Shown in pieces: positions 29,838 to 33,599 of a stretch of 44,204 nucleotides of DNA. Every line of letters begins with the position of its first letter. Position 1 is the stretch's first letter. This stretch comes from Methanobacteriota archaeon (GTDB taxonomy: Archaea; Thermoplasmatota; Poseidoniia; Poseidoniales; Poseidoniaceae), in the NCBI GenBank assembly GCA_018659375.1, contig JABJMO010000009.1, positions 100,320 to 144,523 on the forward strand. Reading direction: 5' to 3'. The notes under the pieces are model-generated. The model was not told the DNA's origin and made no database searches. It saw only the letters and a list, made by a program, of their open reading frames with translations. The translations under genes and the position numbers were made by a program.

Positions 29838-30648
29838 GGTACAAAATTTCCACGGATATTTGATTCTATCAAAGTCCAATTCTTTCACAATATCTTCTCC
29901 TTACACAATCGATGGTAACCGCGTTTTTGGACATGATAGTGATTACACAACTATGGCAATTTCAATAATTAAATACTTAGTAAGCAATGAAATAGAATTT
30001 ACCATCGCCAGTGTCGATGAAAAAATCAATTTTGAAGTATTACAGATTGCTACCGGCATCCAATTAGTAGAAAATGGCCAAAATTTAGCGTGTGGAGATG
30101 ATGCGTCGGTATATCTGTCAAGCACGGAACACTCAACAATCGAAGTTCAAAATACTCCTTCCACATTGATGGATGTAAATTTATATCGATCAATGCAAAT
30201 GGCTTGGAAAACAGAATTAGATATTCGCAATATATCCCAAGGAGCGTATGTATCCAAGCAACAATATGATGAAAGCTTGTCCTCAAGATTATCTCTAATT
30301 GCACAAAATGATGATAAGATAATATGGCCGCCAAGGCAAATGAATAGTGACGGAGTCACTTTGTCAAAAGAAAGTACTAATTTATCACCAAAGGCAAATG
30401 TGTTGACTTGGACCAAGTTAAGTGCCGCTGGCGCACCTTCAGAGTTTGCCATTCGAGCACCTATTCTGGGAGGATTAAGCACAGTGATGGTTGAATTTGA
30501 TGAAGGCCCAAGGGGTGTGTTCTTGATGGTTGATGATGAAGACAGGGAGCCAAAAATTGGTGATAGTGTAGAATTCGTGGTAAGAATGCTGTACGGCCAA
30601 GAAGGAATTGTACGATATGGCACTAAAGCAAGAATTCATTTCGGTTAA
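29830..30648 (+). CDS. DUF35 (OB-fold) acyl-CoA-associated protein with a reduced N-terminal domain
   Basis: The frame is open from 29728 within the thiolase, but ATG 29830 (GGGAG eight bases upstream, overlapping the thiolase stop) gives a natural start and 272 residues. The last 110 residues are the DUF35 OB fold: APILGGLSTVMVEF, GPRGVFLMVDD, PKIGDSVEFVVRMLYGQEG and YGTKARIHF. The PPR motif that normally sits within a four-cysteine ribbon survives as IIWPPRQMNSDG, but the cysteines are gone. The first 150 residues faintly resemble a shortened HMG-CoA synthase-like domain (HDSDYTTMAISI, GDDASVYLSS). It probably scaffolds the thiolase. Stop and next start overlap (TAATG). Confidence 0.72.
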   Translation: MSEVQNFHGYLILSKSNSFTISSPYTIDGNRVFGHDSDYTTMAISIIKYLVSNEIEFTIASVDEKINFEVLQIATGIQLVENGQNLACGDDASVYLSSTEHSTIEVQNTPSTLMDVNLYRSMQMAWKTELDIRNISQGAYVSKQQYDESLSSRLSLIAQNDDKIIWPPRQMNSDGVTLSKESTNLSPKANVLTWTKLSAAGAPSEFAIRAPILGGLSTVMVEFDEGPRGVFLMVDDEDREPKIGDSVEFVVRMLYGQEGIVRYGTKARIHFG

Positions 30649-31709
30649 TGATAGGCAAAGCATTCATAGAAAAAGCCTCCTTTAGCAACCACATGGCGGG
30701 TTTTGGTGGACTCCGGAAAGGTCGGCGCGATGCTGTTGAAAATTTATCCTACAATGAAGGTGGAGAATGCCCACGTTGCGGTGGAGAGGCTGAAAATTCC
30801 TCTATGGCAGGTTACCTTCGATGTGTCACTTGCTCACATGAATGGGCTGACCCAGATTACGTCGAGGAACAGACAAAAAGTGACATCCCAACATATCACA
30901 GGGATGCCGAATTAATAGACCAATTCAAAAAAGATGTCGAGTCAGGTGGTTTGGCTAATGTTCTTGGCGTGGAGAGTAATTTGTCTGAACAACAAGAAGC
31001 CAGTTTAGGACGCTTGGAGGACAAATGGATGAGTGGTATGCAAGGCAGATTCAATACCGCAACTGAAGAAAGAAAACCACTTATGATTATGTTTGATGAT
31101 GAAGACAACATCGTATCTACCGAAGTTGCAGCACTAACCATTGTATCAAATGGCTTTGATGGTGGTGAAGAGATACGCTTAGAATACCCTACCAAAGGTA
31201 CTGAATTTTATTCATACAACGTCAATGATGGCATGGGTTGGAAGAAGGGCGCTAACGCTGAAGAGACTGCCAGATCAATTGCCAATGTGATAAACAATAA
31301 ATCAAATCTTGTCTTTGCCAATTCCAAAGGAACGAGAGTTTCCTTTGAGTTAAGAAATGAGAGCCTAAGGCCAGAATCTCTCGTTTTGTTTGTTGATGAC
31401 CCAGGCGGCACTGATATTGTTGCTGAGAAGAATGGTGTAATCTTAGATGCTAGAAATGCCAGTGATTTCGAAGATTATCGAAATGTTGTAGAGATGGTCC
31501 TAGAAGATGGTATTATTTCCCCAAGTGAAGACCAATTACTCTGGTCACTTAGACAGGAATTAGGTATTGATGATGCATATTATATTCAAATGGTAATTGA
31601 GATGTGCGGTGAAAACACCCTGAAAGAATGCACCTCATGTTCAGCAATGGCCGAATTATATGTTGAATATGGCACATGGTACTGTCATTCATGCGAAGAG
31701 TGGTGTTGA
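30648..31709 (+). CDS. Protein with two zinc ribbons and a TerB-like helical segment
   Basis: Unrecognised protein of 353 residues. An N-terminal ribbon uses Cys41, Cys44, Cys59 and Cys62; a C-terminal ribbon uses Cys328, Cys331, Cys346 and Cys349, with a further Cys353 at the end. Between them a beta-rich region (about 125-270) leads to a helical stretch, LEDGIISPSEDQLLWSLRQE, of the kind seen in TerB-like or EF-hand-like bundles. It is translationally coupled (TAATG) to the DUF35 gene, which has lost its own ribbon cysteines, so a partner role is conceivable. That link is speculative. Confidence 0.65.
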   Translation: MIGKAFIEKASFSNHMAGFGGLRKGRRDAVENLSYNEGGECPRCGGEAENSSMAGYLRCVTCSHEWADPDYVEEQTKSDIPTYHRDAELIDQFKKDVESGGLANVLGVESNLSEQQEASLGRLEDKWMSGMQGRFNTATEERKPLMIMFDDEDNIVSTEVAALTIVSNGFDGGEEIRLEYPTKGTEFYSYNVNDGMGWKKGANAEETARSIANVINNKSNLVFANSKGTRVSFELRNESLRPESLVLFVDDPGGTDIVAEKNGVILDARNASDFEDYRNVVEMVLEDGIISPSEDQLLWSLRQELGIDDAYYIQMVIEMCGENTLKECTSCSAMAELYVEYGTWYCHSCEEWC

Positions 31710-31835
31710 CTTCTAAAAACCCCCAGAAACACCGGTTCTATAGATTTATTATTGCGCTTTTAGGAACCCAAAATCGCATATTTTCATAGGGATTATTCAT
31801 AAGGTATGTCGCAATGGGATGGGTGAGTGAGTCAT

Positions 31836-32861
31836 ATGGCTGGAGATGTATTGTATATTGGAATTGATTTAGGAACCTTTCGCTCTGTGATGGTTTCTTC
31901 AGATAGTCACGAAGAAGAAGAATTAACTGTTATTGGTACACCAAAAGACCCGATTGCACGAAATTTCTTGAAGAGAGATGTTTTATTTGGAGAAGAAGCT
32001 CTAAAAAATAGACTTGCGTTAAATCTGTTTAGACCTCTAGAACATGGGGTAATCAAAGACACTAATGAAGACAGAGATTTCATCGCTCATTTCATCACCC
32101 ACCTAATCTCGCTTTCCGACCCAGAAACTTACGACCGTGTAGTTGCTGTTATCGGAGCTCCTGCTGAAGCAAGTTATGTTGACAAAACAGCCATCTTCGA
32201 TGCCGCTGCAGGAACAGTCAATGCAGCTATGATCATATCAGAACCATTTGCTGTAGCATATGCCCTCGACATGTTAGAACATACTCTAGTAATCGATATT
32301 GGTGCAGGTACAACTGACTTGTGCAGAGTGTACGGAACTATCCCTACACCTGATGACCAAATGCATACAGAGTACGCAGGTGACTATGTTGATAGAAAAA
32401 TTATTGAAGAAGTTCAATCAAAGTATAGTGGTGCTCAAATCACCAAGGATATGGCAAGAAGATGGAAGGAGCAACATTCCTTCGTCAGCACCTCAACTCC
32501 TGATGGACCAATCATGGTTGACTTTTCTATCGAAGGCAAAGCAATGACTCTTGACATCACAGATTGTGTCCAAAAAGCCTGTGAATCAATCGTTGACCCT
32601 ATTGTAGAGAACGTTAAGATACTGATTGCAACTTCTAACCCAGAATATCAAGACGCTTTCAGAAGAAACATGATTCTAGCAGGCGGTGGCTCAGGAATAA
32701 GTGGACTTGGCGCAATGATTGAGAGAAAACTATCAGATCTTGGAGATGTCAGTGTACACGTTGTAGACGACCCAGTTCGCCTTGGTGCAATGGGTGGTCT
32801 TAGACTGGCTATGGAAGTTCCAGAAGAGATGTGGAAGAACCTAACTCTAGCATCACGCTGA
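31836..32861 (+). CDS. Actin-superfamily ATPase closely resembling MamK
   Basis: The 341-residue protein has all actin-fold nucleotide motifs. Phosphate-1 is IGIDLGTFRS (8-17), and connect-1 is ISEPFAVAYALDML. Phosphate-2 is DIGAGTTDL (154-162), and the adenosine motif is LAGGGSGISGLG. Beyond these, segments such as GTIPTPDDQ, AGDYVDRKI and the MNLPEYQ-like NPEYQDAFRRN recall the magnetosome filament protein MamK more than MreB, ParM or Hsp70. The comparison is from memory. It presumably polymerises into filaments that position a cell structure. The frame opens at GTG 31827, but GGTGAG (31822-31827) sets ATG 31836. It is a single-gene unit; no other magnetosome gene is in the window. Confidence 0.85.
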   Translation: MAGDVLYIGIDLGTFRSVMVSSDSHEEEELTVIGTPKDPIARNFLKRDVLFGEEALKNRLALNLFRPLEHGVIKDTNEDRDFIAHFITHLISLSDPETYDRVVAVIGAPAEASYVDKTAIFDAAAGTVNAAMIISEPFAVAYALDMLEHTLVIDIGAGTTDLCRVYGTIPTPDDQMHTEYAGDYVDRKIIEEVQSKYSGAQITKDMARRWKEQHSFVSTSTPDGPIMVDFSIEGKAMTLDITDCVQKACESIVDPIVENVKILIATSNPEYQDAFRRNMILAGGGSGISGLGAMIERKLSDLGDVSVHVVDDPVRLGAMGGLRLAMEVPEEMWKNLTLASR

Positions 32862-32867
32862 TTAGTA

Positions 32868-33599
32868 TCACTCTTCTTCAACTGTACCATACTTGGCTGC
32901 TAGTTCTGGATCGATCAAAGAAGCTTGACAGTGTGGGCATTTATCACTAGAACTCAGCATTGATGGTCTTATGGCTAACACAGCCATACATTTAGGACAT
33001 GCAGCTAGCATCTCCCCATGCTCTAGTTGGAAATCCATGGAACTTGATTCACTGTTAAAATATCCAAGTTTATACATTGGATTAAAGTGATATAAAAATC
33101 TCCTAAAAGAACCGAAAGTAGCCCATCCAGTCAAGAATAAGAACAGAAGACCACCCATATTACCAGTCATAACGATAAATAATGAATCGATTGCGTTTAT
33201 GCCAAAGAACAGTCCAGCGATTAAAATTAATGTTGCTGCTGGCCAGTATGCCCATTTTGTGCGATTCCTGTAAGAACTCCATATAACAAAATTAGCCACT
33301 GCAACAAAACCTAGGATAGCAGTTGATGCAGAAGAGGAAATCATTGATGAGATTGCCCAAAATAAATACATCACTATCAGGCCATCAATAAAAACAATGA
33401 ATGATGTACCGCGGTGGATTCTATCAAATACACTATTGCTAGCGGTCAGAGAGTTAGGACTCATACCTGCTACCACCAACTGGTCACCTCTACTTGAGCC
33501 CATGTAACTCCGCGGCCATTCACTAATCTTGAACCATTGGTTTACAATCTCATAAACAGATTCAACGAAGGTGTCAAATTTGGACAGCCGTTGCCTCAA
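32868..33599 (-). CDS. Membrane protein with C-terminal zinc ribbon
   Basis: Unrecognised protein of up to 243 residues. It has about four hydrophobic helices at roughly 67-90, 93-107, 116-140 and 145-165, then a soluble tail with a zinc ribbon (Cys201, Cys204, Cys221, Cys224). The frame opens at TTG 33599, two bases from the divergent coaBC start; ATG 33503, preceded by GGAG, would leave room for promoters and is a fair alternative. It is convergent with the MamK-like gene after six bases. Confidence 0.62.
   Translation of the reverse strand: MRQRLSKFDTFVESVYEIVNQWFKISEWPRSYMGSSRGDQLVVAGMSPNSLTASNSVFDRIHRGTSFIVFIDGLIVMYLFWAISSMISSSASTAILGFVAVANFVIWSSYRNRTKWAYWPAATLILIAGLFFGINAIDSLFIVMTGNMGGLLFLFLTGWATFGSFRRFLYHFNPMYKLGYFNSESSSMDFQLEHGEMLAACPKCMAVLAIRPSMLSSSDKCPHCQASLIDPELAAKYGTVEEE

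Follow-up and report, generated by a model that had tools for sequence, protein, structure and literature searches.

A MamK-type actin homologue, its paralogue and their conserved partner genes in planktonic Thermoplasmatota archaea

The actin gene and its surroundings

The window analysed here, a stretch of 44,204 nucleotides from an archaeal genome of 1.9 Mb in 80 contigs (G000), carries an actin-like gene, designated A, within the following set of features.

30648..31709, + strand: zinc-ribbon protein (gene 5, representing cluster 5), 353 aa, upstream of A; adjoins A in 11/11 A loci from two families
31710..31835, + strand: leader of 126 bases between the zinc-ribbon gene and A, with a TATA-like TTCATAA (31796-31802) and the ribosome site GGGTGAG (31821-31827)
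31836..32861, + strand: MamK-type actin-like ATPase, paralogue A, 341 aa; NF040964 MamK 370.7 bits, PDB 5ljw/5ljv best
32868..33599, - strand: membrane protein with a C-terminal zinc-finger-like tail (cluster 18), convergent neighbour downstream of A

The reading frame of A (31836-32861, +) starts with ATG and runs uninterrupted for 341 residues. An in-frame GTG lies 9 bases 5' of the ATG, and a Shine-Dalgarno-like GGGTGAG lies 9-15 bases 5' of it, in line with the good ribosome site claimed in the initial annotation. TTCATAA is present in 8/8 A loci of the family to which this genome belongs (f1), at a similar distance from the ATG, which suggests that A has its own promoter. To that extent the earlier description of A as a stand-alone gene holds, but the zinc-ribbon gene adjoins it at every one of the 11 A loci. 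The convergent cluster 18 gene is probably outside the A system, since it is also retained in several genomes without A (L168, L170, L173). Another genome of the same genus, assembled as a single contig, has MamK-A in two adjoining pieces (G011:C1:1175447-1176441), which may reflect a frameshift or a sequencing error.

Among curated NCBIfam families, MamK scores best for A (370.7 bits, E = 5.9e-111), followed by BeeR (222), MreB (93) and salactin (71), with ParM (18.7 bits, cut-off 417, E = 8e-4), FtsA and DnaK as marginal matches. The Pfam search of A yielded MreB_Mbl (95 bits) and the Salactin model (63 bits) and gave no MamK model. Sequence matches in the PDB are headed by three MamK entries (257 bits, E = 2e-75), with BeeR (163) and MreB (56) behind them; the E values of the NCBIfam and PDB matches to MamK rule out a chance resemblance. 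All the segments that had been quoted as MamK-like were found in A and can be aligned with Magnetospirillum MamK (SEPFAVAYALDML/SEPFMVGYGLDKL, DIGAGTTDL/DIGAGTTDI, GTIPTPDDQ/GTVPGPEDQ and AGDYVDRKI/AGNYVDERL); the GT.P...DQ segment is missing in MreB, and BeeR has its own version.

When A was modelled as a monomer from an alignment of 52 proteins (pLDDT 91.6), its top fold match was 5ljv, the MamK filament subunit (TM 0.91, rmsd 1.7, 38% identity), with BeeR and MreB behind. The equivalents of the catalytic residues E143 and D161 of AMB-1 MamK occur in 45/45 A proteins and in 9/9 proteins of a second paralogue, B, and the phosphate loops of the ATP site are invariant across the same 45 A and 9 B proteins. 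Judged from its sequence, A is a real actin-fold ATPase with an intact active site, and it probably polymerises into filaments. The location of the gene and its assignment, within the actin superfamily, to the MamK side are thus confirmed: family scores and PDB matches place A closer to MamK than to MreB, ParM and DnaK, as had been proposed, and also than to actin and salactin, and an affinity for MreB (93 bits) or an Hsp70-like clade (DnaK marginal) was not found beside the 371 bits for MamK.

Distribution and history of the two paralogues

Rather than an oddity of a single genome, A is one of two paralogues that are near-universal in the family. B lies on another contig of the same genome (C14) and is 46% identical to A. 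A MamK-family match is present in 114/116 genomes of f1, most of which have two full-length matches, at about 360 bits for A and about 335 bits for B. In the sister family (f2), 10 genomes from genera g15, g17, g19 and g22, which are early branches of that family, have both A and B, and 48 have neither. Among the other members of the phylum sampled, only G241 has such an actin, the rest having none or weak matches. Assemblies span roughly 1.3-2.3 Mb in the first family and 1.2-2.1 Mb in the second, and archaellin is nearly universal in the former and occurs in some members of the latter. The two families, together one order, probably correspond to Marine Group IIa (Poseidoniaceae) and Marine Group IIb (Thalassarchaeaceae) (cf. 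PMC6461757, PMC6336850).

In a DnaK tree, the MamK-less genera form one supported clade (97/97), on a branch with smaller genomes, which argues for one loss of A and B; a history of many independent co-losses was rejected on the same tree. The co-loss of A, B and their partners is best read as a single event, because they disappeared on seemingly one branch that also shrank its genome. The simplest history would have A and B present in the ancestor shared by the two families, inherited vertically and later lost, a direction suggested by shared synteny. The missing MamKs of G119 and G149 may be assembly gaps, given that G119 keeps a subtilase match and both genomes lack flanking gene 19. A viral or plasmid origin was also considered and rejected, as no relatives occur in IMG/VR, phage or plasmid collections.

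These patterns bear on the possibility that A is a chromosome- or plasmid-segregation actin of the ParM or salactin kind, with the zinc-ribbon protein as its DNA-binding adaptor. Zinc ribbons can bind DNA, which counts in favour of such a role. So does the dynamic instability of salactin (PMC10746226). Against it, A reaches 71 bits with the salactin model (cut-off 400) and E = 8e-4 with ParM, is chromosomal and kept at one syntenic place, has no match in the plasmid collection (72,556 plasmids) or in phage collections, has no centromere-like direct repeat array at its locus, and is dispensable in the sister clade, so that segregation appears distinctly unlikely. More generally, the two actins are unlikely to be essential for division or chromosome partition, since the sister clade lives without both genes; the use in chromosome division suggested at first is not required, as sister lineages that lost A and B persist.

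Conserved partner genes

In a survey of relatives for conserved neighbours, as the initial annotation had advised, the zinc-ribbon gene stands beside A in every locus fetched. Its product has a zinc ribbon at the N terminus (CPRC...CVTC), a CxxC...CxxC pair at the C terminus and the helical module EDGIISPSEDQLLW; a structure model built without an alignment was unusable (pLDDT 36). In f2, full-length or long-fragment matches to cluster 5 occur in 10/10 genomes with A and 0/48 without. G007 lacks both A and cluster 5, possibly through an assembly gap, since flanking gene 19 is missing there too. In many genomes, small proteins of 144-178 aa share the helical module found at the C terminus of gene 5; their genes (for example, G000:C26:4871-5023) lie on the same contig as archaellin genes, about 6-10 kb away.

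Every B locus fetched has the order cluster 11 - B - cluster 10, where cluster 11 is a subtilase that bears a hydrophobic segment and a poorly conserved tail at its C terminus, and cluster 10 is a coiled-coil protein. The gap between cluster 11 and B reaches 228 bases in this genome, and B may therefore not be co-transcribed with the protease. Full-length cluster 10 tracks the MamKs, as does cluster 11 with few exceptions. In MamK-less relatives, the flanking genes keep an unchanged order and the pairs 5+A and 11+B are missing. Cluster 10 persists at the same locus in MamK-less genomes of the sister family (L156, L158-L163) as a protein of about 155-183 aa comprising the N-terminal part only, which suggests that the C-terminal part, lost with MamK, belongs with MamK-B.

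Motile Marine Group II archaea could use the actin to place or anchor the archaellar pole, a role also raised in the initial annotation. Archaellin and the MamK-type actin are both near-universal in f1, and the module of gene 5 occurs in the small proteins near archaellin genes described above, but the two traits separate in the sister family: MamK is missing from genera g14 and g21, which have archaellin, and archaellin is missing from three g17 genomes that carry both MamKs. On the DnaK tree, the independent contrasts gave no association, their number being too small for significance (n=3). Given genera with one trait and lacking the other, the co-occurrence test does not support an archaellum-specific role, and an archaellum- or motility-positioning filament is regarded as decidedly improbable.

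Position among MamK-type actins and the magnetosome question

A scan of 84,980 species genomes recovered at least 498 relatives. The best 80 belong to Planctomycetota, Thermodesulfobacteriota, Nitrospirota, Acidobacteriota, Omnitrophota and others, and for many of these 80 neither the name nor the gene neighbourhood hints at magnetosomes. In an actin tree of 99 proteins, all 78 MamK and MamK-like rows, which are bacterial save one archaeal (L068), fall on one side of a branch with support of 100/99, and A and B fall on the opposite side, where BeeR and MreB lie farther out. The MamKs of magnetosomes, identified mainly from isolate names, occupy at least three places within the bacterial group. 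A test forcing archaeal and magnetotactic MamK into one clade was rejected (AU test, p 2e-45), although this constraint also forces the magnetotactic MamKs together, so that the placement of the archaeal proteins rests on branch support and not on the AU test; a sister relationship of A and B was not rejected (p 0.32). Two sequence features accompany this placement: the position equivalent to residue 21 of AMB-1 MamK is F or Y in all archaeal A and B proteins and S in nearly all bacterial proteins, and DIGAGT is common to archaeal A/B and bacterial MamK-type proteins, BeeR and MreB having DIGGGT.

On this sequence evidence, A is the nearest archaeal outgroup of MamK and not MamK proper, in a tree that used the best 80 of at least 498 relatives (query L049) and from which closer kin of the archaeal proteins are possibly missing. 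The phylogenetic affinity proposed for A thus stands in that MamK is its nearest described relative, but A lies outside the supported bacterial MamK group (100/99). A second Thermoplasmata lineage (L068:8001-9032, G241:C140) carries a MamK-like actin of 435 bits, above the MamK cut-off, on a contig that also encodes archaeal RpoB, Kae1 and Dph6, as well as a 618-aa coiled-coil protein after the actin. This actin was probably acquired separately, because it sits within the bacterial group.

Could A be a bona fide MamK left from a lost, or serving a cryptic, magnetosome system? MamK is indeed its best-scoring curated family. However, A stays below the NF040964 cut-off (370.7 < 400 bits), which is reached in 0 of the 116 family genomes, and A and B fall outside the bacterial MamK group (100/99). 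In a genome-wide profile search for a single magnetosome marker, the magnetochrome domain (PF18509), no match was found in four genomes of the lineage (G000, G047, G009, G124) or in five other MamK-like carriers, and four magnetotactic controls scored, one of them weakly. Such an origin is therefore extremely improbable, and a true MamK of cryptic magnetosomes was rejected as contradicted by cut-off, tree and magnetochrome absence. The earlier statement that other magnetosome genes are lacking agrees with the missing magnetochrome gene in this genome, and the proposal of a MamK-type cytoskeleton with a use other than magnetosomes is upheld by the MamK affinity and the retained ATPase residues together with that absence. 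The implied surprise of a MamK-like protein without magnetosomes is lessened, as MamK-type actins are widespread in non-magnetotactic bacteria.

Neighbours of bacterial MamK-type actins

Beside bacterial MamK-type actins, a terminal peptide of the form ~L..[IV][FYV]..N[LI].[LI] occurs in 50/103 adjoining genes versus 12/645 other genes, figures that are optimistic, since these very data supplied the pattern. With leave-one-family-out profiles, several partner families remain well above background. Its carriers belong to several unrelated families, including a cell-wall amidase, GGDEF/coiled-coil proteins and small proteins in magnetotactic genomes (examples within L070-L147 are L075:3-1049, L105:7127-7918, L110:7431-7952, L116 and L138:6827-7870), and the peptide may be a common actin-binding peptide. 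A shared adaptor peptide in the archaeal partners was rejected, as clusters 5, 10 and 11 did not rise above background with the profile of the bacterial partners; VFADSLSL in cluster 10 and AVENLSY in gene 5 resemble the peptide and are only a lead.

An N-acetylmuramoyl-L-alanine amidase (Amidase_3) lies directly upstream of MamK-type actins in L070-L143, an arrangement found in Nitrospirota, Desulfobulbaceae, Acidobacteriota, Gammaproteobacteria and others, which suggests a cell-wall role for these bacterial actins. By extension, the archaeal proteins could form a cytoskeleton for cell shape or envelope synthesis with an MreB-like role. The many bacterial MamK-type actins that adjoin a cell-wall amidase bearing a hydrophobic segment at its N terminus, and the membrane-anchored surface protease that B adjoins, are in keeping with such a function, but A scores 93 bits with MreB (cut-off 293), no mreC or mreD was among the genes scanned around A, and the C-terminal tail of the subtilase is poorly conserved. 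Archaea, moreover, are not known to have murein. An MreB-like role is accordingly considered unlikely.

A candidate two-filament scaffold

The explanation judged somewhat more probable than all others together is that A and B form a two-filament internal scaffold, each with a dedicated adaptor and with a cargo that is most likely envelope-associated and not magnetosomes. A would be an ATP-driven, filament-forming actin homologue of the MamK type in a planktonic Thermoplasmatota archaeon, probably a member of Poseidoniaceae (Marine Group IIa), working through the zinc-ribbon protein encoded just upstream as its putative adaptor. B, encoded elsewhere in the genome, would work through the product of the next gene downstream, a long coiled-coil protein, and perhaps also with that of the gene immediately upstream, a membrane-anchored extracellular subtilase. 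Together they would build an internal scaffold that organises or anchors cargo, most likely envelope-associated complexes.

This two-filament reading draws on the family and PDB scores, the fold match to 5ljv, the invariant ATP site, the 114/116 distribution, the synteny of 5-A and 11-B-10, and the co-occurrence and co-absence of the partners. Fold class, conserved active site, two paralogues, partners and their joint absence in one sister clade are observed, and from them we infer polymerisation, adaptor binding, scaffolding and the nature of the cargo. The putative adaptor role of the partners follows from the adaptors beside bacterial actins and from those experimentally established for MamK, namely the MamJ-like Mg-1g50 (PMC10653835), McaA/McaB (PMC13170167) and coiled-coil Mad proteins (PMC12748827); by analogy, the archaeal partners may connect filament to cargo as MamK adaptors do. 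The surface protease next door and the membrane context lean slightly towards envelope organisation. Of the uses first suggested, the positioning of a body may apply, as may that of an envelope complex.

Marine Group II archaea are among the most abundant planktonic archaea and are uncultured. In the literature searched, an actin was not found described for this group, and the pair appears to be a new two-actin system conserved in these archaea. The conserved MamK-type actins and their named partner genes offer concrete targets for polymerisation and binding tests. It is conceivable, and held here with a little less than even confidence, that the two-filament cytoskeleton of Marine Group II, with its dedicated, lineage-specific adaptors, and the bacterial actin/adaptor pairs represent a general system for tethering cargo, and that the magnetosome filament was co-opted from it. 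The wider findings point to MamK as one specialised branch within a larger family with other tasks, which bears on the evolution of magnetosome alignment.

Comparison with known actin systems

MamK (NF040964; PDB 5ljv, 5ljw, 5jyg) shares with A whole-length homology at 38-39% identity (AMB-1), the same length, DIGAGT, the GT.P...DQ segment, the catalytic E143/D161 and the fold (TM 0.91). A differs in its score (371 versus 400 bits), in F/Y instead of S at AMB-1 position 21, in its neighbours, in its position outside the bacterial MamK group and in a genome without magnetosome genes, as judged by the magnetochrome marker. Non-magnetotactic bacterial MamK-like actins (Planctomycetota, Desulfobulbaceae, Nitrospirota, Acidobacteriota; L069-L147), at about 39-49% identity, resemble A in often having a dedicated partner gene adjoining, with mutually unrelated partner families, and in that a magnetosome role is not apparent in most; what sets them apart is the similar terminal peptide found in many of their partners, which the archaeal partners lack, and their separate supported group in the tree.

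BeeR (NF053558; PDB 8r2n) provides a precedent, being a filament related to MamK that has no assigned function and occurs in bacteria that are not magnetotactic (PMC11929497), and its GYFPGPDDQ segment recalls that of A. In contrast to BeeR, A scores 222 bits against a cut-off of 530 and lacks the N-terminal disordered extension of 30-50 residues, homology beginning at residue 6; a much longer branch is a further difference. The haloarchaeal salactin is likewise an archaeal actin, and its nearest subfamily was reported to be MamK (PMC10746226), but A belongs to another archaeal clade and scores 71 bits with NF053533 (cut-off 400) and 63 bits with Pfam Salactin. Finally, MreB shares with A the actin fold and the Pfam MreB_Mbl match (95 bits), from which A is set apart by a score of 93 bits against a cut-off of 293 and by an identity of 22-27% with the MreB structures that the fold search retrieved.
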